55,109 nucleotides of DNA from Parcubacteria group bacterium RIFCSPLOWO2_01_FULL_48_18 (GCA_001824435.1 MHXH01000020.1:1-55109); one strand, 5' to 3'; numbered from the stretch's first letter, positions 1-12,187 are shown. Translations and numbers: made by a program. Notes: generated by a model not told the origin, from the letters alone.

Positions 1-1714
1 AGCATTGTTCGCAGTAAACAATTTCCGGACGCTCGGGAGCGTAGGAGGTTTCGAATTCGTTGGGACAACACCCTTCTCCGTGAAAATGCGGAAAGACATT
101 TTGATATATACCGTTTTGCGATTTAACGCCGGAACAGCCACATTGCCGATGCCACAGCCGATTCGGGCCACGGGCGCTGAAACGCAGCGAATGCCGACAA
201 TCGGGACACAGTCGCGGCAGAGGAATTTGCAGGTTTTTATAAAAAGCAAACTCGTTCGCGATAATCTTGTAATTTTTCTTGCACTGAAGACAGGTAAAAA
301 TCTCTTTTGCAACATCCAAGTTGCCGATATCGTTGACTGAATCCGGCACACTATCCCACGAGATAGTGCCCTTATCATACGTGCCGCGAGGATAATCTTC
401 CCACCTAAATCCTTGCCTTAATGCTTCTTCTTTTGTGAGAGGAAATTGCTCCTGGGCAGCGCTTTCGTTATAGCCAAAAGCGCTCACGGAGGCCGGGAAA
501 AATTCGCCGTATTCCCCTCTTTTTTGCATATCTTCAATAATCCTGTTTTTTAAATTCTCGTAAGAATCCTTACTGTGCTGCTTGTTCAAAATACAATAAT
601 CTTTCTTCTGAAGGCCGGCCGAGCCGAAACAGTTATTTGAGTTGAAACAATAGTACGAATAATGAACAAATGTGGAGCTCCAGCAAACCGCGGAACCGAC
701 GTAATTTGAAACGCCTACGCCGGCATTCATGGAATTGTACAAGAACTCGGCGCCGCGGCCGGCAGTATCAACATCCATACAGCTTTTCGCGTTCCGCCAG
801 ACATGAACGCCATACCTTGAGTCTTCGGCATCATAGCAATGGAAGCAGTGCCAGCAATTTTTCGCATTCTTGATGTAGTTTCCCGTTGAATTTTTGGCGT
901 TCACAATTTCGGCGAATTTCCTCGGCTGGAAAGCCAAAAACTCGGAGAATTTCTTCCGTAGTTCCTCAACGCCACTGTAACCGTCCAGCCGGGCTGATTT
1001 CAAAAACGATTCGTATTCAGCTTTCTTTACCGGCTTGTTGAATATGTGGTATTGCTTGTTTCGCAAATTGACGCAACCGATGCAACTTGAAGAACCGCGG
1101 CAGTTAAGCAAGAAATAACCGTTATTGCAATCATGACACCCCTTGCTGTAAAAAAGCCGGTAGCTATTATAACAATCATCGCTCTCGTAAGAAAGCTCGG
1201 TTCGGTGGGAAAAAGAAACGCTAACCAAATCCTTACAAACTTGAATCCAGTAGCAATGAATGCAGTTCTCGTTATTGGACGATTCAACGATCATGTAACA
1301 ATTTTTACTGTCCGCCGAGATGTTGGTGTATTCGGAATTTACGCTACGGACGTAGATGAGCGAGAGCTTAGGGACCTCATTCCATAAATCGTTAAATTGT
1401 TCAAAAAAGGACCGATCGGAGTCGTAATCGCGGCCGTAGCTCAAGGAATCCCATTTGTCCGAAAACCAGCAATCGTGGCAGTAAACCTTGTACGGTTTGT
1501 TCGGACTATACATTGATATGTGCTCCTTTCCGCACAAATCGCACTTACGCTTATAAAATACCCGCTCGTTACGGAACATCAATCTCCTCTGCGCTCGGCA
1601 GAACGGGCACATTTTCGGCAAACCCACCTTAAATCTTTCGTAAAAATTCAAATCTTCCCCGTAAATCGGGAAGTTGGATTTACAGTTTTGACATGTTTTT
1701 GTTTCGGGATTCAT
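1..1714 (-). CDS. Cys-rich double-zinc-ribbon paralog A (C-terminus cut by window edge)
   Basis: This is the last gene of the operon. The reading frame runs open from ATG at 1714 to the window edge. Aligned with its paralogs, only the last few residues are missing; the visible C-terminal end reads PEIVYCEQC. It has the family N-terminal motif (CxxC, then a FYE/K-type segment and a second CPxCR pair) and keeps the second finger (CDLC and YCHDCW) also present in paralog B. The middle is rich in Asn-Cys and Asp-Cys pairs. Its ATG overlaps the TGA of paralog B by four bases (ATGA), which suggests translational coupling. No enzymatic motif is visible and the function is unknown. A structural or metal-binding role is inference. 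Confidence 0.85.
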   Translation of the reverse strand, partial: MNPETKTCQNCKSNFPIYGEDLNFYERFKVGLPKMCPFCRAQRRLMFRNERVFYKRKCDLCGKEHISMYSPNKPYKVYCHDCWFSDKWDSLSYGRDYDSDRSFFEQFNDLWNEVPKLSLIYVRSVNSEYTNISADSKNCYMIVESSNNENCIHCYWIQVCKDLVSVSFSHRTELSYESDDCYNSYRLFYSKGCHDCNNGYFLLNCRGSSSCIGCVNLRNKQYHIFNKPVKKAEYESFLKSARLDGYSGVEELRKKFSEFLAFQPRKFAEIVNAKNSTGNYIKNAKNCWHCFHCYDAEDSRYGVHVWRNAKSCMDVDTAGRGAEFLYNSMNAGVGVSNYVGSAVCWSSTFVHYSYYCFNSNNCFGSAGLQKKDYCILNKQHSKDSYENLKNRIIEDMQKRGEYGEFFPASVSAFGYNESAAQEQFPLTKEEALRQGFRWEDYPRGTYDKGTISWDSVPDSVNDIGNLDVAKEIFTCLQCKKNYKIIANEFAFYKNLQIPLPRLCPDCRHSLRFSARGPNRLWHRQCGCSGVKSQNGIYQNVFPHFHGEGCCPNEFETSYAPERPEIVYCEQC

Positions 1715-3489
1715 ACCACTTCTGTATTGTAGCACTGCTCACAGTACACTATTTCTGGTCTCTCCGGGGCATAGGAGGTTTCAAATTCGTTTGGACATCC
1801 CCCTACTCCGTGGAAATGAGTAGCTGTATTTTTGTAAATACTGTTCTCTGATTTTGCTCCGGCGCATTGACATTTACGGCGCCAAAGATTCAAGGGATTT
1901 CTCTTTTTGAATCTTTGATAATGACGGCAGTTCGGGCAAAGACGGGGCAATGGCAAGTTGAATTTTTGATAGAACCCCAATTCTTCTGCAGTTATCCGAA
2001 AGGCTTTCGTGCATCGCTCATTGCATTTGGATTCGTGGGCGCATCCAATAGTCTCTTTCAGAATTGAGGCATCGATACTGCGAATATGATCCGGAAGGTC
2101 CTCCGATTTTTGGGTAATCGCATAATTCTTTTCTGCCGCCTCGCGATAACGCAAGCCACGGACGACTATTTCCTCTTGTGCCAGAGTAAAAAGGTCCTGA
2201 GCCACCGAGTCATTGTACGGAAAGGGTGAAAGTTCCGATGGGAAAAATTCCCCGTAGCGGTACGTTATGCCGCGCTTATCAACATAGGCCATTTCATCCA
2301 TTTGTTTCTTGATCTTATCCACTAGACGGAAATATTCATCTTTTGGGTATTGCCTGTTTAGAATGCAATATTCTTTCCCACGAAGCGAAATGCAGCCAAA
2401 AAGATCATGGGATCCGCCACGGCAAGTATCACAGTACTCGATGTTTCGCACTTCGGGCCAGGCGTCCACACAGAACTTCGCATTTGAGGACTTCAATCCC
2501 GCCGTACACACTTCATAGAAAAGCTCCATATTGCAACAGCCGTTATTTACGTCCATCGTATCCTTGGCATCGTTTAAAAACAGGCAATATCGACAATTCT
2601 CAACATCCGCCACGTTGAAACACCAGAAACAATCCTTGGCATTGCTCATGGTGTGGCCGACTGAATTGACACAGTTCCGTTCATTTGCGAAACGATGGAG
2701 CGCTTTATTCTTGAGTCGGGAAAACTCCTTTTTGAGTTCTTCTATGACCTTATGGGAACCCGTATCAATTTCCTTCCGACGGCTTTCGTATTCTTCTTTT
2801 GAGAGGCATTCACCCCGAAAGACATAAGAAGCGCGACGGAGATTTGCGCTCATGAAACAATTCTGCGAAGAACGGACATCAAACGAAAACAGCATATCAA
2901 GAGAATTTGCGCAATCTTCCGTGAACGCGACGCGGGAACTGCCCAGACACTCAATACACTCATAGGCATTCTCGCAGCGCAATACGATAAGACAATCAGT
3001 CAGGTTCTTTGAATAGAGAACGCGAAAACAGTATCGGCAGTCCTCATTATCAGACCCGGACGAGATAAGATAACAATTCTTGCAATTCGCAATCTGATTC
3101 GAAAAATCAGAATTTACTGAATTGCTGACTTGAAGGTTTATTCGGGGAACGGCTTTCTGAAGTTCCGAAAACTGAGCTAGGAACGACTTAGAAAAATCAT
3201 AATCCCGCCCGTGTGCAAGTGGATCCCAATTGTCGGAATACCAACACTCACGGCAATAGACGGGAAAAAAGGCGTCTGCGGGATACATAGCGATTATTGC
3301 CTTCTTGCAAAGGTCGCACATGCGTTTATAAAAAGACCTCTCGTTACGCCAGGAAAGTCTCCTCTGCAGACGACAGAGAGGACAAAATGTCGGTGGCGGG
3401 ACGGAGATTTTTTCGTAGAATGCAAAATCATCGGGTTCAATGGTGAACTTTTGTTTACAATTTTGACAAATTTTAGTTTCTGAACCCAT
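1711..3489 (-). CDS. Cys-rich double-zinc-ribbon paralog B
   Basis: 592 aa with about 42 cysteines by my count (7%). Domains in order: an N-terminal zinc ribbon (C8, C11, C36, C39) resembling the zf-trcl type (F-x-FYEK...P-x-x-CPxCR); a second CxxC pair set (C58/C61, C79/C82); a central region of roughly 20-25-residue periodic segments with NC, DC and EC pairs, possibly a beta-helix ladder, in two halves each closing with a SYxxxxxx...KEEY or EYCILNRQYPKDEY signature; and a C-terminal module (491-592) with ERC, CPNCRH, KCQC, HFHG, and CEQC near the end. The C-terminal module resembles the N-terminal ribbon. No signal peptide is seen, so it is probably cytoplasmic. It follows the kinase gene by 16 nt. 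Function unknown. Confidence 0.9.
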   Translation of the reverse strand: MGSETKICQNCKQKFTIEPDDFAFYEKISVPPPTFCPLCRLQRRLSWRNERSFYKRMCDLCKKAIIAMYPADAFFPVYCRECWYSDNWDPLAHGRDYDFSKSFLAQFSELQKAVPRINLQVSNSVNSDFSNQIANCKNCYLISSGSDNEDCRYCFRVLYSKNLTDCLIVLRCENAYECIECLGSSRVAFTEDCANSLDMLFSFDVRSSQNCFMSANLRRASYVFRGECLSKEEYESRRKEIDTGSHKVIEELKKEFSRLKNKALHRFANERNCVNSVGHTMSNAKDCFWCFNVADVENCRYCLFLNDAKDTMDVNNGCCNMELFYEVCTAGLKSSNAKFCVDAWPEVRNIEYCDTCRGGSHDLFGCISLRGKEYCILNRQYPKDEYFRLVDKIKKQMDEMAYVDKRGITYRYGEFFPSELSPFPYNDSVAQDLFTLAQEEIVVRGLRYREAAEKNYAITQKSEDLPDHIRSIDASILKETIGCAHESKCNERCTKAFRITAEELGFYQKFNLPLPRLCPNCRHYQRFKKRNPLNLWRRKCQCAGAKSENSIYKNTATHFHGVGGCPNEFETSYAPERPEIVYCEQCYNTEVV

Positions 3490-3505
3490 GCTTTATAACT
3501 TTAGA

Positions 3506-4486
3506 TTATTTTGGCTGCCGCAATTGTTCTTTCTCCAGACGGCGGGCTATGGGCAGAAATTTCCTCACAAGAAATAATGTGTAGCTTTTCGGTACGTATT
3601 TTATCGGCACGTGGTACAAATCAACCCAGACGTGGCTGTAAATCGCAAAAAGGATTGACTGTTTTAAATAATGTTTCTCTCTCTGGGAAAGCTTTCTTTT
3701 TCTTGAGTATCCCGCAAGAAATTTCTTGACCAAGGTCCCGTCTAAACCTCTCTTACCCAGGCAGTTCCACATAACTGTTTTCCCCACATCAAATATAAAA
3801 GGATCTACATATGTATTTCCGAAGTCGATAATTCCAGTTAATTTCTCTCCAATAAAAAGCTCGTTGTCGGGCTTGATGTCCACGTGAACTGGACCCCGAG
3901 GAAATCCTCTGGGCAGACGGTTATTTTCTACTCCCAGCCTTACCTCTTCAACGACTGCCTTAAGTTTGGGATGGGTTTGTTTTTTAGCGTAACGATACAT
4001 TAACGCCACAACCTTGGGATTCAAATCATAAAACCTTCGTCTGCCCAACATTCTTTTCTTAAACTTACTGCCCAATCTGTGAAATTCGCCGACAAATTTA
4101 CCGAGTTGATACGCCATCTTTGGCGTAATCCTTTTAGGCTGCCGGCCTTGTAAAAATCTATACGCGCTTACTGCATATCCCCTAAAATTCTCGAGATATT
4201 TTCCGCGCTTTGATTTGACGTAATGCGGGACTGGCAGATGCTTTAAGTGTGTTAAGAAATTTATCTCATGCAGGAGCGCAACCCTGGGAACAATTTTCAT
4301 ATCCGCAACAACAACTTTCTTGCTGGATAAATTGTGCTTTGCAACAATAAATTTACACCTCGGGGTTGTTATCACCACCTTGGGCGTCTGATATCCATAC
4401 CGAAAATACTTAATATCCTCTATTTTGCCGAGATCAAACAAATCTGCAATTTGTTCATACTCGTTTTTAGAGAAAAATTTAAGCAT
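3506..4486 (-). CDS. Aminoglycoside phosphotransferase/homoserine-kinase-II-like kinase
   Basis: 326 aa protein-kinase-like fold of the APH/choline kinase superfamily. The catalytic loop HVDIKPDN is at residues 201-208 (Brenner-type HxDxxxxN) and the Mg-binding DFGN is at 221-224. A likely ATP-site lysine lies in the N-lobe (FIVAKHN, near residue 50). The family phosphorylates small molecules or, more rarely, proteins. The substrate here cannot be told from sequence. The gene starts 5 nt after the stop of paralog C and ends 16 nt before paralog B, so it is inside the Cys-rich operon and probably co-expressed. Resistance to an antibiotic is only one possibility; a role linked to the Cys-rich proteins is inference from position. 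Confidence 0.85.
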   Translation of the reverse strand: MLKFFSKNEYEQIADLFDLGKIEDIKYFRYGYQTPKVVITTPRCKFIVAKHNLSSKKVVVADMKIVPRVALLHEINFLTHLKHLPVPHYVKSKRGKYLENFRGYAVSAYRFLQGRQPKRITPKMAYQLGKFVGEFHRLGSKFKKRMLGRRRFYDLNPKVVALMYRYAKKQTHPKLKAVVEEVRLGVENNRLPRGFPRGPVHVDIKPDNELFIGEKLTGIIDFGNTYVDPFIFDVGKTVMWNCLGKRGLDGTLVKKFLAGYSRKRKLSQREKHYLKQSILFAIYSHVWVDLYHVPIKYVPKSYTLFLVRKFLPIARRLEKEQLRQPK

Positions 4487-4491
4487 GTATT

Positions 4492-6312
4492 TTATGCTGC
4501 TTCAGAATTATAACATTGCTCGCAGTAGACTATTTCGGGGCGGTCGGGGGCGTAAGAGGTTTCGAATTCGTTCAAGCATTTCCCATTACCGTGGACATGA
4601 ACCACTGCGTTCCGATAAAGACCGTTTTCGGATAGCTCACCGGCACACTGACACCCCCGGTGATACAAATGAACGGGCAAGCGCTCCTGAATACGCTCAT
4701 GATGTCGCGTGTTATAGCACTTACGCGGAAGCGGGAGCTTAAACCGCCGGTAAAACTCAAACTCTTGGGACGTAACACGAAAAGCTTTCGTACAGTTATG
4801 CTTTAACGCTTCGGCCTCGCCAGCTTCCCATGCCTCACAGAGAATGATTTGCCGTAAAATATCGTCGCTTGCGGCGTCGATCGTATCCGGCAGATCGCGC
4901 CAGGTCATTGTTGGTTCATAATTTTTAGTCTCGGATTCTTTCCAAAAAAATCCGTTACGGCTTGCCTCTGCCTTATCGATGGAAAACTGTTCCTGCGCGA
5001 GCGTGTGGTTATACGGATACGGCGAAAATTCCGGCGGAAAGAATTCTCCATAACGATATACAATCTTTTGAATTTCGGATTTAGAATTTCGGATTTCCGA
5101 TATGTATGGCATCTTGTCCATATGATCGACGATTCTTTTCCGCAGGGACTCATACTCCGTTTTCGCGTATTGCTTGTTCAAAATGCAATATTCTTTCTTC
5201 TTGACGCCGACGCAGCCGAAAAGATTCGACGAATTAGCGCAATACAATGAATACTCGATACGATTGTTCTCGGGCCAGCACTCCCAACAGAATTTCGCGT
5301 TATAGAGTCCCAAGCCGGAAGCAACCGCCTCATAAACAAGTTCGGCGTTGTGTCCCCAAACGGTATAATCGTAACATTCTTTAGTCGGTGGAACCAAAAC
5401 GTACTGGCAATAACGGCTATCTTCCGCCCCCTGAACGAGATATGAATTTTGTACGTTCTTCGAATTATAAACGTACGAGCCGGTGGAATTCACATTCTTA
5501 TTGTTTTCTGCATATTTATTGGGATATTCAAGCCAGAATGCACGAACTTCCCGCCTTAGCCGGTTCAAATTTTCCCGCGAGCTGAACCGGAATTCCGTCA
5601 GCTTTTGTTCATATGCCTCTTTGGAATACTGCTCGTTGAATATGCAATAACTCTTATTGCGGAGATTCACGCACCCAAAACAGCTGTAACAACCCGAACA
5701 CTTCTTCGAAAACCACATATCGTAACACCCGTTAAGCCGCGTTGAAAAAAAGCAACGCGAACAACCGACGGAAAATGTAGTTTCATAGCAAAATTCACTT
5801 TTGTCCACATGAGAAAAATCGACACAGTTTTTCGTATGGTTCGCGCCATTGCCATACAGGCAATCTTCCGCATAGTTGCCGTTGAATACGAGATAGCAAT
5901 TTTTGAATCCCGTGTAATTGTTTGAATAATCGCTATTCACGCCGTAGATAACCGAGAGCGCGAATGTCGGGACCTCTTTCCATAATTCCCGCAATTGTTC
6001 CAAGAATGGCCGGGAAAAATCCACGTCCCTGCCGTAGCGCATCGGATCCCACTTGTCCGAGAACCATACCTCGTTTTCATAAACCTTCTGAAATGAATCT
6101 GGCGGGAACATGGCAAATATTTCCTTGCCGGAAAAATCGCTTTTCCGTTTATACACGAATCGTTCGTTGCGGAAAGCGAATCTGCGCCGCATCCTGCACT
6201 CCGGACAGAATGTCGGCGCCGGAACGGAGATTTTTTCGTAAAAAAGAAAGTCCTCGGGCTCAACCCAGAATTCCCGATGACAGTTCTGACAAATTTTGGT
6301 TTCAGCATTCAT
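4492..6312 (-). CDS. Cys-rich double-zinc-ribbon paralog C
   Basis: 606 aa, same architecture as paralog B. The N-terminal ribbon has CQNC and CPECR. The central ladder has paired signatures KSYCIFNEQYSKEAYE and EYCILNKQYAKTEYE. The C-terminal module has NCTKAFRVT, RKCYNTRHH and CQCAG, and ends with CEQC. Two cysteines are altered: the second N-terminal finger is lost (SDFSG and YENEV replace the CxxC pairs of A and B), and the C-terminal CxNCR reads CYNTR. An extra stretch reading SEIRNSKSEIQK (nt about 5068-5100) is absent from the paralogs and looks like an inserted short repeat. Its start codon overlaps the stop of paralog D by four bases. Function unknown. Confidence 0.9.
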   Translation of the reverse strand: MNAETKICQNCHREFWVEPEDFLFYEKISVPAPTFCPECRMRRRFAFRNERFVYKRKSDFSGKEIFAMFPPDSFQKVYENEVWFSDKWDPMRYGRDVDFSRPFLEQLRELWKEVPTFALSVIYGVNSDYSNNYTGFKNCYLVFNGNYAEDCLYGNGANHTKNCVDFSHVDKSEFCYETTFSVGCSRCFFSTRLNGCYDMWFSKKCSGCYSCFGCVNLRNKSYCIFNEQYSKEAYEQKLTEFRFSSRENLNRLRREVRAFWLEYPNKYAENNKNVNSTGSYVYNSKNVQNSYLVQGAEDSRYCQYVLVPPTKECYDYTVWGHNAELVYEAVASGLGLYNAKFCWECWPENNRIEYSLYCANSSNLFGCVGVKKKEYCILNKQYAKTEYESLRKRIVDHMDKMPYISEIRNSKSEIQKIVYRYGEFFPPEFSPYPYNHTLAQEQFSIDKAEASRNGFFWKESETKNYEPTMTWRDLPDTIDAASDDILRQIILCEAWEAGEAEALKHNCTKAFRVTSQEFEFYRRFKLPLPRKCYNTRHHERIQERLPVHLYHRGCQCAGELSENGLYRNAVVHVHGNGKCLNEFETSYAPDRPEIVYCEQCYNSEAA

Positions 6313-8084
6313 ATAATTTCGGCGCTATAGCATTGCCTACAATAAACGATCTCCTCTCGATCCGAAGCATAGGAAGTTTCAAATTTATTAGAGCATTTTC
6401 CTTCTCCGTGTTGATGTTCTGCGGTGTTTTGATAAAGACCGTTTTCGGATTTCTGCCCGGCGCACTTGCAATAACCTTTCCAAAGTCTCGGCGGGTTCCT
6501 GTGGGCAAATCTGGCCGCATGCCGACAGTTAAAACAAAGTTGCGGCAATGGCAAACCAAATCTGCGATAAAACTTGAGTTCTTCCGCAACAATTTTAAAG
6601 GCGGTCGCACATTCATGGTTACGCTCTCCTTTATGAGCACAGCCGATGATTTTATCCAGTATTGAATCATCAACTTCTTTTATGTTTTTAGGAACATTCA
6701 CGGCTTCTATTGTAACTCTGTAATTTCTTTCATCGCCTTCGCGCCAATTAAATCCTTGCTTCAATGCCTCTGCTTTAATCAATGGAAAATTCTCTTGAGC
6801 AACGCTTTCGTTATAAGAGAATGGAGAAAATTCTTTGGGGAAAAATTCGCCGTATTCTCCCCGCTTTTTCGTGTCTTGAATTATAACCGGAACCAGCTCG
6901 TTGTATTCCTTTTCCGTGTACTGTTTGTTCAAAATGCAATAGGAGGCGTTCTTTAAACCCGCGCAACCGAAAAGATGATGAGAATTCGAACAGGAATCGC
7001 AATATTGCAGCTCGCGGCATTCCGGCCAGCAGTTCGAAGAAAATAAAACCTTATAGGCGCCCTTGCCAATGGTAATACTCTCGTAGCATAATTCTGCCGG
7101 GTCGCCCCAGTCCGTAACGTCCAAACAATCCCGGCCCGCTATTAGCTTGGAGCAATATCGCACATTCTGACTTTCGTGGACCGTAAAACTCTTGAAAACG
7201 TTTTGGGAATTAATGATGTAGTCGCCGGTGCAAGTTGATTCGCTTTGGGGATCTATGTGGGCGTATTTTCTTGGGAAAGAAAGCGAAACGTCTTTAAGCC
7301 GCAACTGAAAATCATTAATTTGTTCTAACGTTAAATTTTCCAGTATCTTTCCGACTTGCGCTTCGTATTCTTGTTTAGTCAGCTGCTTGTTCCATAAACA
7401 GTAAGACTTATTTCTCAAACCCGCACAACCAAAACAATTCAGACAGTTCCGACAGTCGTACAAAAACCAAGAATCAATGCATTGCCTGGATTCATCGCAA
7501 AAGAATGTCCGCGTACAATCAAGTGAATCTATGCACTCATAGGCATATTCAACCCGTCGACACCAAAGACAATCTATTGATGTTTTCGCGTAATCAAGAT
7601 TATTACTGTAAAGACAGTCTTCATTATCTCCCGAAGCGCTGACCATGTAGCAGCGCTTGTTACGGCTAGCGGAATTCTGATATGTGCTTCCGTTTTCAAT
7701 GGACTGAAGGTCTGTAAGCAATGCGCAACGGGGAACCTTCAGTTGTAGTTCCCGGAATTGTTCAAAAAAGCCACGCCCCGGATTATATTCCAAACTTGCG
7801 GGAGTCCAATCTCTAGCATGAAACTCGTACACATCATAAATTGGAAAGTGGCTGTCATCCGCATATTGGCTGATTAATTCTTTTCCGGAAAGACTTGATT
7901 TTCTCTTATGGAGATTTCTTTCGTTGCGCCACAGCATGCGTCTTTTCATCCGACACTCCGGACAAAACGTCGGCGGTGGAACTTTGATTTTTTCATAAAA
8001 TGCAAAATCCTCCGGTTCGACGCGAAACTGCTGTCCACAATTTTGGCACTGGCGTGTTTGCGACAGGCGTGTTTGCGAATTCAT
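6309..8084 (-). CDS. Cys-rich double-zinc-ribbon paralog D (first gene of operon)
   Basis: 591 aa. It has the N-terminal ribbon CQNC...CPECR; a central Asn-Cys/Asp-Cys ladder with the two signatures SYCLWNKQLTKQEYE and SYCILNKQYTEKEYN; and a C-terminal module with CATAFKIV, CFNCRH, CKCAG and a HQHGEG segment, ending with a CRQCY pair. As in paralog C the second N-terminal finger is lost (SSLSG, YDVYE). It opens the operon. Only 28 nt separate its start from the divergent gene at 8113, so promoters for both directions must overlap there or lie inside the genes. No Shine-Dalgarno is obvious. Function unknown; metal binding is inferred from the CxxC pairs. Confidence 0.9.
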   Translation of the reverse strand: MNSQTRLSQTRQCQNCGQQFRVEPEDFAFYEKIKVPPPTFCPECRMKRRMLWRNERNLHKRKSSLSGKELISQYADDSHFPIYDVYEFHARDWTPASLEYNPGRGFFEQFRELQLKVPRCALLTDLQSIENGSTYQNSASRNKRCYMVSASGDNEDCLYSNNLDYAKTSIDCLWCRRVEYAYECIDSLDCTRTFFCDESRQCIDSWFLYDCRNCLNCFGCAGLRNKSYCLWNKQLTKQEYEAQVGKILENLTLEQINDFQLRLKDVSLSFPRKYAHIDPQSESTCTGDYIINSQNVFKSFTVHESQNVRYCSKLIAGRDCLDVTDWGDPAELCYESITIGKGAYKVLFSSNCWPECRELQYCDSCSNSHHLFGCAGLKNASYCILNKQYTEKEYNELVPVIIQDTKKRGEYGEFFPKEFSPFSYNESVAQENFPLIKAEALKQGFNWREGDERNYRVTIEAVNVPKNIKEVDDSILDKIIGCAHKGERNHECATAFKIVAEELKFYRRFGLPLPQLCFNCRHAARFAHRNPPRLWKGYCKCAGQKSENGLYQNTAEHQHGEGKCSNKFETSYASDREEIVYCRQCYSAEII

Positions 8085-8488: not shown

Positions 8489-11400
8489 CTACGCCTTTCT
8501 GATTCGGACGTCGATCTTTTGGCCGTCGATTCTAATCTCCTTTTCCGCATCAAACTTCTCCGGCCATGTAAATTCAACCCGGCGCGCGCCGACCTCTTTC
8601 GTATATTCTCTTTGCCGATTACCGATTATCGCACGAAGGTTGTGTTCGGCTTTAAACCAAACGAAAATACGGTCTTTCGGTTTAAATTTCGCGTCTTGGC
8701 GCAATTCTTGCGTCATCCGGATCAAATCCCGTATAATCCCCTCCTCTTTAAGCTCGGGCGTAATCACGGTATCAAGCTTCAACTCTTTTCCGATCGTTAC
8801 ATCTTTTACATTGATTTCATCCTTGAGAATGTTCAACAGCGCCTGACTTTTTTGCAGCTTTTGGAATTTGGTCCGCCAGCTGGCGGATGGAATTTGGATT
8901 TGGGCGAGCGGCTGCCTTACTTTTATCCCCGCTTTAGACCGCAACCCAAGCGCTTCTGCGGCAATAACGCGAATCTCTTCCATCTGGCTGAGCAGTTTTT
9001 TATCAATCAAACTTTTGCGCGGCTTCGGCCAATCAACGAGATGAACCGATGTCGGTAGCTTGTAACTGGTAGACCGTGACTGTTTTTTTACTCTTTTTGG
9101 CGACACGGGCGTGCAGACCTTCACTAATTCCTGATATATCATCTCGCTAAAAAATGGCGCAAATGGGGCTACCATAACCGACAAATAATACAGCACATTC
9201 GACAGCGTGAATGATGCTGCCAGAAAATCGCTTCGATTATCCGGTTTCTGCAATCTGCGGCGCGAACGGCGCAAATACCACCGCGACAAATCGTCAACAA
9301 ATTCTTCGATAAGTTTTATCGGCTTGCCAATCTCATACACATCCATATTCACCGCGACCCAATCAATCGTCTGATGCAAACGCGAGAGAATCCATCTATC
9401 AAGAGGATTCGTAATCGGAACCCTGAAAACGTCAGCGCTCTTATCGGCGTAAGTGTCGTAAAATATGCAAACATTTAAACATGTCAGAAAGAAACGGCGC
9501 AGCGTTTTCGTCAGATCGCCCTCGTCAAACCGCTTGGGCTCGCCCGGAGAATTTACGGAATAGAAATACCAACGAATTACGTCGGCTCCGTACTTTTCAA
9601 TCATCTGCCACGGATCAACAACATTACCTTTCGATTTCGACATCTTCTCGCCGTTTTTATCAAGCACGTGTCCGAGGCAGATGACGTTTTTATACGGCGC
9701 CCGGCATCCTAAGCACGTGCCAACCGCCAAAAGCGTATAAAACCATCCGCGAGTCTGATCAATGGCTTCAGAAATATAATCTGCCGGGTATGAAAGCTTC
9801 TTGAATTTGGAATTTGCCCCTCGGTCCTGAGCTCGGGATCGAAGGAGAATTTGGAATTTGGAATTTCGCCTGACAAAATAATTTTCAAACGGAAAATGAT
9901 TTTGGGCGAATGGCATTGCGCCCGAATCAAACCATACGTCTGCCAATTCTTTGACGCGTATCATTCTACCGCCGCACTTTCTGCAACCAAAAACTACGCC
10001 GTCTATATATGGACGGTGAAGATTTACGGCTCTCTGATCGTCGCGCGGAAGATGCGCAAACTCAATATCCACCACTCCTGCTAATCCGATAAAGTCCTTT
10101 TCTTGTTTCCCTTTACGCAACGCAATGGTTTCCTCGTCGGACAAACCCCGGGATCCACCATAAAGCATCCAAATGGGATATTCGTGGCTGACAAACAAAA
10201 TGGTCTTACCGCTATATTTTTTTTCCGTTTCCTCGATACACTCTATCACTCGTTTACGAAGATCGGCTAAATTTTCTCCTTCCGGCGGCCGTTTGACGAA
10301 TTTTTCAATGCGCGAAGAATAATAATCGCTGTACCCGCGCACTGGTCCGCCTTCAAAAATACCCACATTCACCTCGCGGATGCGCGGGTCAATAATTACT
10401 TTCTTGATGCTTAAAATCGACGCCGCAATTTCGGCGGTTTCGCGCGCCCGAAGCACGTCAGAACTGACAATAATATCCGGTATCACTCCCTTTCTTTTTA
10501 AAGCATAAATTGTCTTCTCGGCTTGAGCTCTACCCCGCAACGTCAAATGATTTCTTCCACTGTGCGCATCGGCGATGCCCTGCACATTCATCTGCGCTTC
10601 TCCGTGGCGCATTGCGAAATAACGGTTCTTCGCCAGCCCTGTTCTCTGCGTCAACTCCTCACGACTGCCTATTACTTCTAAATTTCGACATCCGGTACAC
10701 TCCCAAATCGGCAACGGCGTCCCCCAATACCGCTCGCGGGAAAAATTCCAATCTTTCGCTTCTTTCAGCCACTCTCCGAACCGACCTTCTTTGATGTGTG
10801 ACGGAATCCAGTTTATCTGCTTATTGTTTTCTTTCAGTTTTTTACGCAATTTGCTTACTGCTACAAACCACGAATCGCGCGCATAGTACAAAAGTGGCGT
10901 GTCGCACCGCCAACAATGGGGATATTCGTGCCGATACTGTTCTTCGGCGAATAAAAATTTTCGTTCATCAAGGTAACGGATAATTTTTTCGTCGGTTTCT
11001 TTCGCTTTCACGTACAGCCCGGCGACGACCGGCGCGGACGAGACAAACCTGCCGCCTTCATCGACCGTATGAACCTTTGGCAATCCCACTCTCGCGCCCA
11101 ATTGATAATCATCTTCGCCGTACATCACTGCCGTATGCACTACGCCGGTTCCCTCTCCGGTACCCACAAAATCCGCCGCATACACCTTGAACGAATTTTT
11201 GGATTGCAATTCTTTGACCTTAAAAAGCTGTTCGTATTCGATACCGAGAAGGCGCCTACCATCGAATACATCATAATTCCCAGATTCTCCTTTGCGCCAC
11301 GCCGACGGAGGAGCGGAAAACTGCGACTCATATCCTTTGGGAAATACGCCGGAGGTCAAAAGCCGTTTAAAACTTTCAAGCTCAAGCACGATCCAATGAT

Positions 11401-12187
11401 TTTTTATCTGCGGATCGGGTACGCACACAAACGTATGACCTGGGTTGATCGCGAGCGCAACGTTTCCCGGTAACGTCCATGGTGTCGTTGTCCAAGAAAG
11501 AATGGAAGTGCTCTTCCATTCTTTCTTGTCCTGAGCGGAGTCGAAGTACTCATGCTTCACCCTAAATTTCACATACACCGAGCGATCAACCGTTTCTTTA
11601 TACCCCAATGCCATCTCATGCGAAGAAAGCGCAGTCCCGCATCGCGTGCACCACGGCACCACCTTATGTCCTTTATACAAAAGTTTCTTCTGCCAAAATT
11701 GCTTGATAATCCACCACAACGTTTCAATATACGGCGCCTGATACGTAATGTAAGGATTCTTGAGGTCAAGCCAAAAACCGATACGCTCGGTGAGCTTCTC
11801 CCACTCGTCTTTATAGCGCCACACGGATTCTTTGCACTTACGATTAAACTCGGCAATGCCGTATTGTTCAATATCCTTTTTGGTTTTAAGCCCCAGCTCT
11901 TTTTCCACCTCGATCTCAACCGGAAGCCCATGCGTATCCCATCCGGCTTTGCGTTCAACATAAAAACCGCGCATGGTTTTATAGCGACAGATGACATCTT
12001 TAAATGCTCGCGCAAGAACGTGGTGAATGCCCGGTCTGCCATTAGCCGTTGGAGGTCCCTCGTAGAACCGGAATGCTTTGCGGCCGCGCATTCTCTCAAA
12101 AGAACGCTCAAAGACTTTGCTTTCACGCCAAAATTTCAGCATTCTTTCTTCTTGCTCGGGCAATGAGAGTTTTTCACCTTCCAACAT
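8489..12187 (-). CDS. ileS: Isoleucyl-tRNA synthetase with inserted histidine phosphatase domain
   Basis: 1232 aa from the ATG at 12187. I chose this start because MLEGEKLSLPEQEERMLKFW is the usual IleRS N-terminus and a TATTAT hexamer sits 8 nt upstream; an in-frame extension to 12241 runs through a hairpin and looks non-coding. It charges tRNA-Ile in the cytoplasm. The HIGH-type motif reads GIHH (PTANGRPGIHHVLAR), WTTTPWTLPGN marks the editing domain, and KMSKSKGN is the class I ATP loop (near residue 849). Within the synthetase, about residues 515-715, is a histidine phosphatase domain (MRHGEA, LTLRGRAQAE, SSDVLRARETAE, SHEYPIW). After it the synthetase resumes at VFGCRKCGG. In-frame short repeats (DSAQD, NSKFQ and SASWR types) also interrupt it. 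Confidence 0.97.
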   Translation of the reverse strand: MLEGEKLSLPEQEERMLKFWRESKVFERSFERMRGRKAFRFYEGPPTANGRPGIHHVLARAFKDVICRYKTMRGFYVERKAGWDTHGLPVEIEVEKELGLKTKKDIEQYGIAEFNRKCKESVWRYKDEWEKLTERIGFWLDLKNPYITYQAPYIETLWWIIKQFWQKKLLYKGHKVVPWCTRCGTALSSHEMALGYKETVDRSVYVKFRVKHEYFDSAQDKKEWKSTSILSWTTTPWTLPGNVALAINPGHTFVCVPDPQIKNHWIVLELESFKRLLTSGVFPKGYESQFSAPPSAWRKGESGNYDVFDGRRLLGIEYEQLFKVKELQSKNSFKVYAADFVGTGEGTGVVHTAVMYGEDDYQLGARVGLPKVHTVDEGGRFVSSAPVVAGLYVKAKETDEKIIRYLDERKFLFAEEQYRHEYPHCWRCDTPLLYYARDSWFVAVSKLRKKLKENNKQINWIPSHIKEGRFGEWLKEAKDWNFSRERYWGTPLPIWECTGCRNLEVIGSREELTQRTGLAKNRYFAMRHGEAQMNVQGIADAHSGRNHLTLRGRAQAEKTIYALKRKGVIPDIIVSSDVLRARETAEIAASILSIKKVIIDPRIREVNVGIFEGGPVRGYSDYYSSRIEKFVKRPPEGENLADLRKRVIECIEETEKKYSGKTILFVSHEYPIWMLYGGSRGLSDEETIALRKGKQEKDFIGLAGVVDIEFAHLPRDDQRAVNLHRPYIDGVVFGCRKCGGRMIRVKELADVWFDSGAMPFAQNHFPFENYFVRRNSKFQILLRSRAQDRGANSKFKKLSYPADYISEAIDQTRGWFYTLLAVGTCLGCRAPYKNVICLGHVLDKNGEKMSKSKGNVVDPWQMIEKYGADVIRWYFYSVNSPGEPKRFDEGDLTKTLRRFFLTCLNVCIFYDTYADKSADVFRVPITNPLDRWILSRLHQTIDWVAVNMDVYEIGKPIKLIEEFVDDLSRWYLRRSRRRLQKPDNRSDFLAASFTLSNVLYYLSVMVAPFAPFFSEMIYQELVKVCTPVSPKRVKKQSRSTSYKLPTSVHLVDWPKPRKSLIDKKLLSQMEEIRVIAAEALGLRSKAGIKVRQPLAQIQIPSASWRTKFQKLQKSQALLNILKDEINVKDVTIGKELKLDTVITPELKEEGIIRDLIRMTQELRQDAKFKPKDRIFVWFKAEHNLRAIIGNRQREYTKEVGARRVEFTWPEKFDAEKEIRIDGQKIDVRIRKA
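8861..8902. repeat. Short palindrome within an AATTTGG repeat, inside ileS
   Basis: A perfect 16 bp palindrome (tccgccagctggcgga, 8872-8887) is flanked by gaatttgg-type repeats. It is in-frame and encodes the SASWRTKFQ part of IleRS. A near copy occurs twice at 32185-32212 in the beta-propeller gene. Confidence 0.7.
9803..9868. repeat. Nested in-frame repeat in ileS (AATTTGG flanks with a DSAQD-type core)
   Basis: Copies of gaatttggaattt flank a core containing tcctgagctcgggatcga. The latter resembles the repeat at 11531-11551 in the same gene. The whole insertion keeps the reading frame and encodes SKFQILLRSRAQDRGANSKF. Confidence 0.7.
11531..11551. repeat. In-frame DSAQD-type repeat in ileS
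   Basis: The stretch tcctgagcggagtcgaag encodes FDSAQD on the minus strand, next to an inverted pair formed by gaatggaag and cttccattc. It lies at the start of the editing domain, where IleRS has no conserved residues. Confidence 0.6.

Follow-up and report, generated by a model that had tools for sequence, protein, structure and literature searches.

Isoleucyl-tRNA synthetases (IleRS) of the eukaryote-like IleRS2 type are exemplified by the Thermus thermophilus enzyme (PDB 1ile), IleRS2 of Priestia megaterium (8c8w) and the GXHH form (PMC10485003), while branch-1 histidine phosphatases (HPs; Pfam PF00300), among them the phosphoserine phosphatase PspA of Hydrogenobacter (4ij5/4ij6), the glucosyl-3-phosphoglycerate phosphatase Rv2419c (GpgP) and YhfR/PhoE, are known as free enzymes. 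Both are combined in a single gene, ileS, on a contig of 55,109 nucleotides (MHXH01000020.1, contig C20), which was analyzed as a whole and is termed the window in the following; it belongs to the draft genome of Parcubacteria group bacterium RIFCSPLOWO2_01_FULL_48_18 (GCA_001824435.1; 1.21 Mb, 29 contigs). The encoded IleRS resembles the IleRS2 types in its body, its CP1 domain, both zinc knuckles, the KMSKS motif and a GIHH signature, but it has about 200 additional residues in the second zinc knuckle. These in turn match the branch-1 HPs in predicted fold, RHG motif, second arginine, acidic residue, second histidine and the order of these elements, although they are nested in a synthetase and only about 25% identical to any solved member.

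Catalytic domains attached to synthetases have precedents. The NCBIfam model NF040702 (ileS_w_GNAT) describes an IleRS with an embedded enzyme, which differs from the present case in both the enzyme and the insertion site; the window protein lacks the acetyltransferase domain and stays below the cut-off of that model (285.5 vs 1999 bits). Similarly, the methionyl-tRNA synthetase (MetRS) of the genome-reduced Mycoplasma penetrans carries a second catalytic activity, an appended aminotransferase that makes methionine for the synthetase, and a section heading of the respective paper calls the domains functionally independent; there, the fusion is terminal and not nested, and the substrate of the partner is known (PMC7694997). 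Enzyme-synthetase fusions are thus already known. Full-text literature searches, whose coverage left out most subscription papers, yielded no paper describing an IleRS-HP fusion. An HP domain also occurs on tau55, a subunit of TFIIIC, which is a eukaryotic tRNA-related housekeeping transcription factor and not a synthetase; to our knowledge, this domain has no settled substrate.

The ileS gene lies on the minus strand (12187..8489) and encodes 1232 amino acids from an ATG or 1250 from a TTG farther upstream. Its product belongs to the isoleucyl-tRNA synthetases according to the NCBIfam equivalog model TIGR00392 (828 bits, cut-off 621), whereas Pfam divides it into tRNA-synt_1 in two pieces (PF00133, the first at residues 16-514), His_Phos_1, Anticodon_1 and DUF5915. 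The His_Phos_1 match (PF00300, residues 525-685) reaches 7e-30 and 104.6 bits against a cut-off of 21.7. A preliminary description, made from the sequence alone, had proposed an HP domain of about 190 residues inserted in IleRS; Pfam, NCBIfam and alignment with insert-free IleRS bear out the insertion, and all HP landmark motifs that it quoted are present. Its length and position need small corrections: according to the alignment with insert-free relatives, the insert comprises about 203 residues (519-721). It lies between the cysteine pairs C497/C500 and C735/C738 and thus inside the second zinc knuckle, where it takes the place of approximately residues 480-488 of 1ile. The two pairs align with C461/C464 and C502/C504 of 1ile, which are zinc ligands in that enzyme. 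The synthetase itself retains all four knuckle cysteines, a CP1 editing domain showing the customary motifs, the KMSKS motif and the anticodon domain. The principal features, given in window coordinates, are as follows.

8489..12187, minus strand: ileS, IleRS with nested histidine phosphatase, 1232 amino acids (open reading frame, Pfam, NCBIfam)
10634..12187, minus strand: residues 1-518, first half of the catalytic domain and CP1 editing domain (PF00133 at 16-514; 1ile alignment)
12020..12031, minus strand: swapped class I signature motif G-I-H-H, residues 53-56 (sequence; form as in PMC10485003)
10688..10699, minus strand: first cysteine pair of the second zinc knuckle, C497-x-x-C500 (aligned with C461/C464 of 1ile)
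10025..10633, minus strand: inserted HP module, residues 519-721 (alignment with insert-free IleRS; AF2 model; VIA match to 4ij6)
10133..10615, minus strand: Pfam His_Phos_1, residues 525-685 (profile match)
10604..10609, minus strand: R527-H528 of the RHG motif, predicted phosphate-binding arginine and nucleophilic histidine (83/83 embedded IleRS domains)
10448..10450, minus strand: R580, predicted second phosphate-pocket arginine (83/83)
10373..10375, minus strand: E605, predicted general acid (81 Glu and 2 Asp of 83)
10184..10186, minus strand: H668, predicted second phosphate-pocket histidine (83/83)
9974..9985, minus strand: second cysteine pair of the zinc knuckle, C735-x-x-C738 (aligned with C502/C504 of 1ile)
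9632..9646, minus strand: KMSKS motif, residues 848-852 (sequence; alignment)
8900..9400, minus strand: anticodon-binding domain, residues 930-1096 (Pfam PF08264)

Judged by sequence and structure prediction, the insert is a genuine and complete branch-1 HP. It features the RHG motif, the pocket of Arg, His, Arg and His, and an acidic proton donor after the third strand, and its AlphaFold2 (AF2) model (pLDDT 86, pTM 0.85) adopts the three-layer alpha/beta fold of the HPs; in a model of the full-length IleRS (pLDDT 84), the HP domain is likewise folded in place. The closest VIA match of the insert model is PspA (4ij6; Z 22.8, rmsd 2.2, 184 residues), followed by Rv2419c (22.2), YhfR/PhoE (21.4) and an HP of the riboflavin pathway (21.0), and these scores are too close together to single out a substrate. 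No NCBIfam HP equivalog model passes its cut-off on the insert, as illustrated by 2,3-BPG-dependent phosphoglycerate mutase (NF038349, 90.7 vs 225 bits; TIGR01258, 24.8 vs 81.7), alpha-ribazole phosphatase CobC (TIGR03162, 64.7 vs 162.9), PspA (NF045917, 57.1 vs 350) and phosphohistidine phosphatase SixA (TIGR00249, 32.3 vs 74.5).

Conservation of the active site is strict. In a first alignment of 32 inserts, N3, R9, H10, G34, S58, R62, E120, R128 and H150 (alignment positions) are invariant, and across the Candidate Phyla Radiation (CPR) the equivalents of R527, H528, R580, E638, R646 and H668 occur in each of 83 IleRS-embedded HP domains, tandem copies counted, while the position of E605 is occupied by Glu in 81 and by Asp in two. 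Nine HP domains embedded in valyl-tRNA synthetases (ValRS) all retain the two arginines and the first histidine, and eight retain the last histidine. Since the 31 other aligned inserts of the order are merely 29-49% identical to that of the window, this invariance argues for selection on the active site. The nested HP is therefore probably active as a phosphatase, as the preliminary description had supposed from both catalytic histidines and the arginine being kept: these residues and the acid are not only present but strictly conserved in homologues, and the converse prospect, that they might vary freely, is not borne out.

The distribution of the fusion gives the comparison of IleRS across related genomes that the preliminary description had called for. 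Within the order (61 genomes, that of the window included), 47 genomes encode a fused IleRS in frames of about 1130-1265 amino acids, a few of which are ended by contig edges; 11 encode an insert-free IleRS (about 940-1040 amino acids where complete), and no clear IleRS was found in three. Outside the order, 15 of 19 sampled genomes of the class possess the fusion, as do at least 48 of 286 genomes in a phylum-wide sample. In a genome-wide scan with a single protein as query, the named organisms closest to the window by IleRS were Jorgensenbacteria, Wildermuthbacteria and further Parcubacteria/Paceibacteria, which marks the source organism as a member of the CPR (Patescibacteria). The public records LCQK01000001.1 (Jorgensenbacteria) and MHTS01000027.1 (Wildermuthbacteria) show the fusion at the identical site. 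On the other hand, the insert is absent from the named non-CPR IleRS records of Lachnospiraceae, Delongbacteria, KSB1, Zixibacteria, Vibrionaceae and Rickettsiaceae. In two samples of Bacillota-phylum and Pseudomonadota genomes (about 500 together), covering 249 genomes of the phylum to which a Lachnospiraceae record belongs and 249 of that of a Vibrionaceae record, none of the matches listed (about 150 in the former) lies in a synthetase-sized frame, all of them measuring about 160-410 amino acids. As far as sequence comparison goes, the HP insert is hence ancient and retained by much of the class, and not the oddity of one synthetase as which it had first been presented.

This breadth also settles the origin of the gene arrangement. 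An assembly chimera or annotation artefact, which the preliminary description had named as a possible refutation and which a draft genome in 29 contigs might bring to mind, can be regarded as practically negligible: the insert recurs at an identical position in 46 further genomes of the order, besides the two public records, which reflects neither chance nor assembly error, the G+C content of the insert (48.3%) is like that of the whole gene (47.5%), and the frame is open throughout. An apparent natural break of IleRS within the HP domain in genome G027 was rejected, since it corresponds to a 50-N scaffold gap.

Several observations concern individual IleRS genes. The source assembly contains a second HP-embedded IleRS (locus L054, G000:C8, 1409-4801, minus strand; motif PHIGH) on a contig of 9.9 kb, whose G+C content is 43.5% compared with 46.9% for the window and whose tetranucleotide correlation is 0.88 compared with 0.91-0.96 for pieces of the window; it may be a true paralogue, a recent transfer or a contaminant. 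The IleRS of genome G045 (L049, G045:C29; also L109) contains 6-8 in-frame TGA codons, which suggests that TGA is a sense codon in family f26. In the window IleRS, segments at 11525-11545 (..YFDSAQDK..) and about 9800-9860 (low-confidence ..LRSRAQDRG..) resemble in-frame interspersed repeat elements of the TTCGACTCCGCTCAGGACAAG type. The swapped GIHH of the window protein (12020-12031) belongs to the GXHH form, which has been linked to mupirocin hyper-resistance (PMC10485003). Among the IleRS compared, this form was found in 41 of 77 with the insert and in 5 of 22 without it.

Embedding of catalytic domains extends to further synthetases of the CPR. One or two HPs reside in the ValRS of several lineages (L032, L033, L057, L059, L063, L069, L073, L074), in the cases read at the loop that corresponds to the zinc knuckle of IleRS. 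The IleRS of family f101 harbors two HPs in tandem, while an IleRS of 1572 amino acids (L056, 1167-5882) accommodates three at three sites, namely the knuckle, the region after the WFESGAMPY segment and the junction of the catalytic and anticodon domains. At the latter junction, an HP is also found in an IleRS with an embedded GNAT acetyltransferase (L058, 1638-5990, minus strand), and a ValRS (L063, 327-4157) embeds a HAD hydrolase, a serine hydrolase and an HP. Taken together, these relatives indicate that small catalytic domains have repeatedly been accommodated in surface loops of IleRS and ValRS within the CPR. HP fusions of about 450 amino acids in family f79 were rejected as a substrate clue, since the sequence reads as DedA-like membrane proteins and not as synthetases; in L160-L163 of this family, the HP occupies the C-terminus of such a protein of about 440-460 amino acids.

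Phylogenetic trees portray the module as mobile, with the limitations that the alignment is short, branches are long, tree searches were quick and groups were picked after the trees were seen. In the HP tree, a main group contains 62 IleRS inserts, among which eight free HPs are nested, and the other IleRS and ValRS inserts branch elsewhere; since a single clade of all embedded HPs is not rejected (AU p 0.18), no number of independent insertions is claimed from the tree alone. The tree of IleRS bodies with the insert removed implies at least 10 gains or losses on well-supported branches and conflicts with that of the inserts. In family f84, the six inserts form one clade (support 96), in contrast to the six bodies, which occupy two positions in their tree (AU p 2e-5); constraining the inserts to the grouping of the bodies is rejected (p 0.002). 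Hence, the module either moves from one synthetase body to another or remains in place when the body is exchanged. Free HPs sharing an N-x-Y lead-in before the RHG motif form a subfamily in Pseudomonadota and other CPR (L145, L147, L107, L108, L155), which is a candidate donor group of the main IleRS insert.

In genomes devoid of the fusion, the HP may persist as a separate gene. Within the order, 6 of the 14 genomes that lack a fused IleRS contain free copies of the insert type (E < 1e-40), compared with none of the 47 that encode the fusion (Fisher test by genome, p 5e-5; by family, 0.01). This complementary pattern implies that the phosphatase activity itself is kept and that the covalent link is not strictly required. 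In AUK161 (L082) and G330 (L102), argS is followed by the HP gene, an insert-free ileS and recO, whereas in families f11 and f22 an insert-free IleRS is accompanied by an insert-type HP far from ileS. Among the loci with fused ileS that were compared, argS adjoins in 39 and recO in 23 (gene names read from the sequences). Neither the flanks of fused ileS (argS, recO, trpS, RNase J, smpB) nor those of free HPs (secA, an alkyltransferase-like gene, a sugar cluster) point to a substrate.

Elsewhere in the window, three neighboring paralogous Cys-rich proteins of about 590-606 amino acids, starting with ..CQNC...FYEKI.VPPPTFCP.CR and matching no Pfam family, are encoded at 1711-8084. An APH-type kinase gene (3506-4486) is situated among them, and a shorter relative lies near a free HP on contig C24.

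The preferred reading of these findings, to which we assign about an even chance, is a bifunctional enzyme in which an autonomous phosphatase for a soluble small molecule is fused for steady co-production. An otherwise normal IleRS2-type enzyme would carry the HP as an autonomously folded unit where its second zinc knuckle forms an exposed loop. Following the standard two-step mechanism of the family, His528 would take the phosphate off a phosphomonoester, with Arg527, Arg580 and His668 holding the phosphate and Glu605 donating a proton, whereupon the phosphohistidine would be hydrolyzed. Acting on a small phosphorylated solute, the phosphatase would be independent of the aminoacylation step, and its fusion would ensure, in a genome of very small size, that it is always made together with an essential enzyme. 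Autonomy is supported by HPs that occupy three positions in a single IleRS, stand in tandem or reside in ValRS, and by the GNAT, HAD and serine hydrolase domains embedded in sister synthetases. Several points weigh against this reading: no large frames other than those of IleRS and ValRS were found to contain the HP module, which mostly occupies the same loop; one free form adjoins ileS; some insert-free genomes lack any such HP; and the association of free copies with missing fusions becomes weaker once relatedness is considered, with p rising to 0.05 by family without a doubtful copy in f16. The restriction to IleRS and ValRS, together with the HP next to ileS, hints at a coupling with the charging of branched-chain amino acids, for which the preferred reading has no need.

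Such coupling is the essence of a possible, though less favored, explanation, in which the target of the HP is produced or encountered at the synthetase and the fusion itself is the point. Suggested targets are the by-product AMP, a phosphorylated or nucleotide-like inhibitor of the active site, and the terminal phosphate of a damaged tRNA. The shared loop of IleRS and ValRS, the HP gene adjoining ileS in insert-free relatives and the persistence of the module when the synthetase body is swapped are all in its favor, as are the GNAT, HAD and serine hydrolase domains of sister synthetases, which are of kinds that inactivate small-molecule inhibitors. It is countered by free copies that adjoin secA or other unrelated genes in two families and by lineages without HP. 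The aminoacyl-adenylate itself is an unlikely substrate, since HP enzymes act on terminal phosphomonoesters. For the same reason, classical editing by the HP domain is unlikely, all the more as CP1 is still present: synthetase editing is the hydrolysis of an aminoacyl ester or anhydride, a chemistry different from that of HPs. Of the roles offered by the preliminary description, namely regulation, editing or cleavage of a phospho-nucleotide, none has thus gained support. As to regulation, a protein or phosphohistidine phosphatase controlling the phosphorylation of the synthetase or its partners would agree with the intact active site, and branch 1 does include SixA and protein-tyrosine-type members; this is nevertheless considered unlikely in view of the low score of the SixA model and of flanking genes (argS, recO, trpS, RNase J, smpB) that include no conserved kinase. 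Very unlikely is a structural passenger that stabilizes the loop or extends the tRNA-binding surface irrespective of catalysis: the host loop does tolerate many different insertions, but the catalytic residues would hardly stay invariant in 83 domains of such divergent sequence, nor would the HP be kept as a free gene where it is unfused. On a wider scale, it is conceivable, albeit rather speculative, that IleRS and ValRS of the CPR carry embedded detoxifying or quality-control enzymes, namely one to three phosphatases, GNAT, HAD and serine hydrolase domains. Their targets at the synthetase would be phosphorylated products, damaged ends of tRNA or inhibitors resembling nucleotides, and they would thereby constitute a protection system not described before.

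Enzyme domains nested in a core enzyme of translation are rare, and here the HP active site has stayed unaltered across a class of genome-reduced bacteria that have shed much else. The IleRS of the window provides a concrete, expressible protein for probing a phosphatase activity tied to an essential gene, with natural controls in the form of insert-free synthetases, free HP genes, tandem copies and the ValRS versions. Its substrate would reveal either that phosphate metabolism is linked to the charging of branched-chain amino acids, or the use of essential genes as vehicles for unrelated enzymes in reduced genomes.

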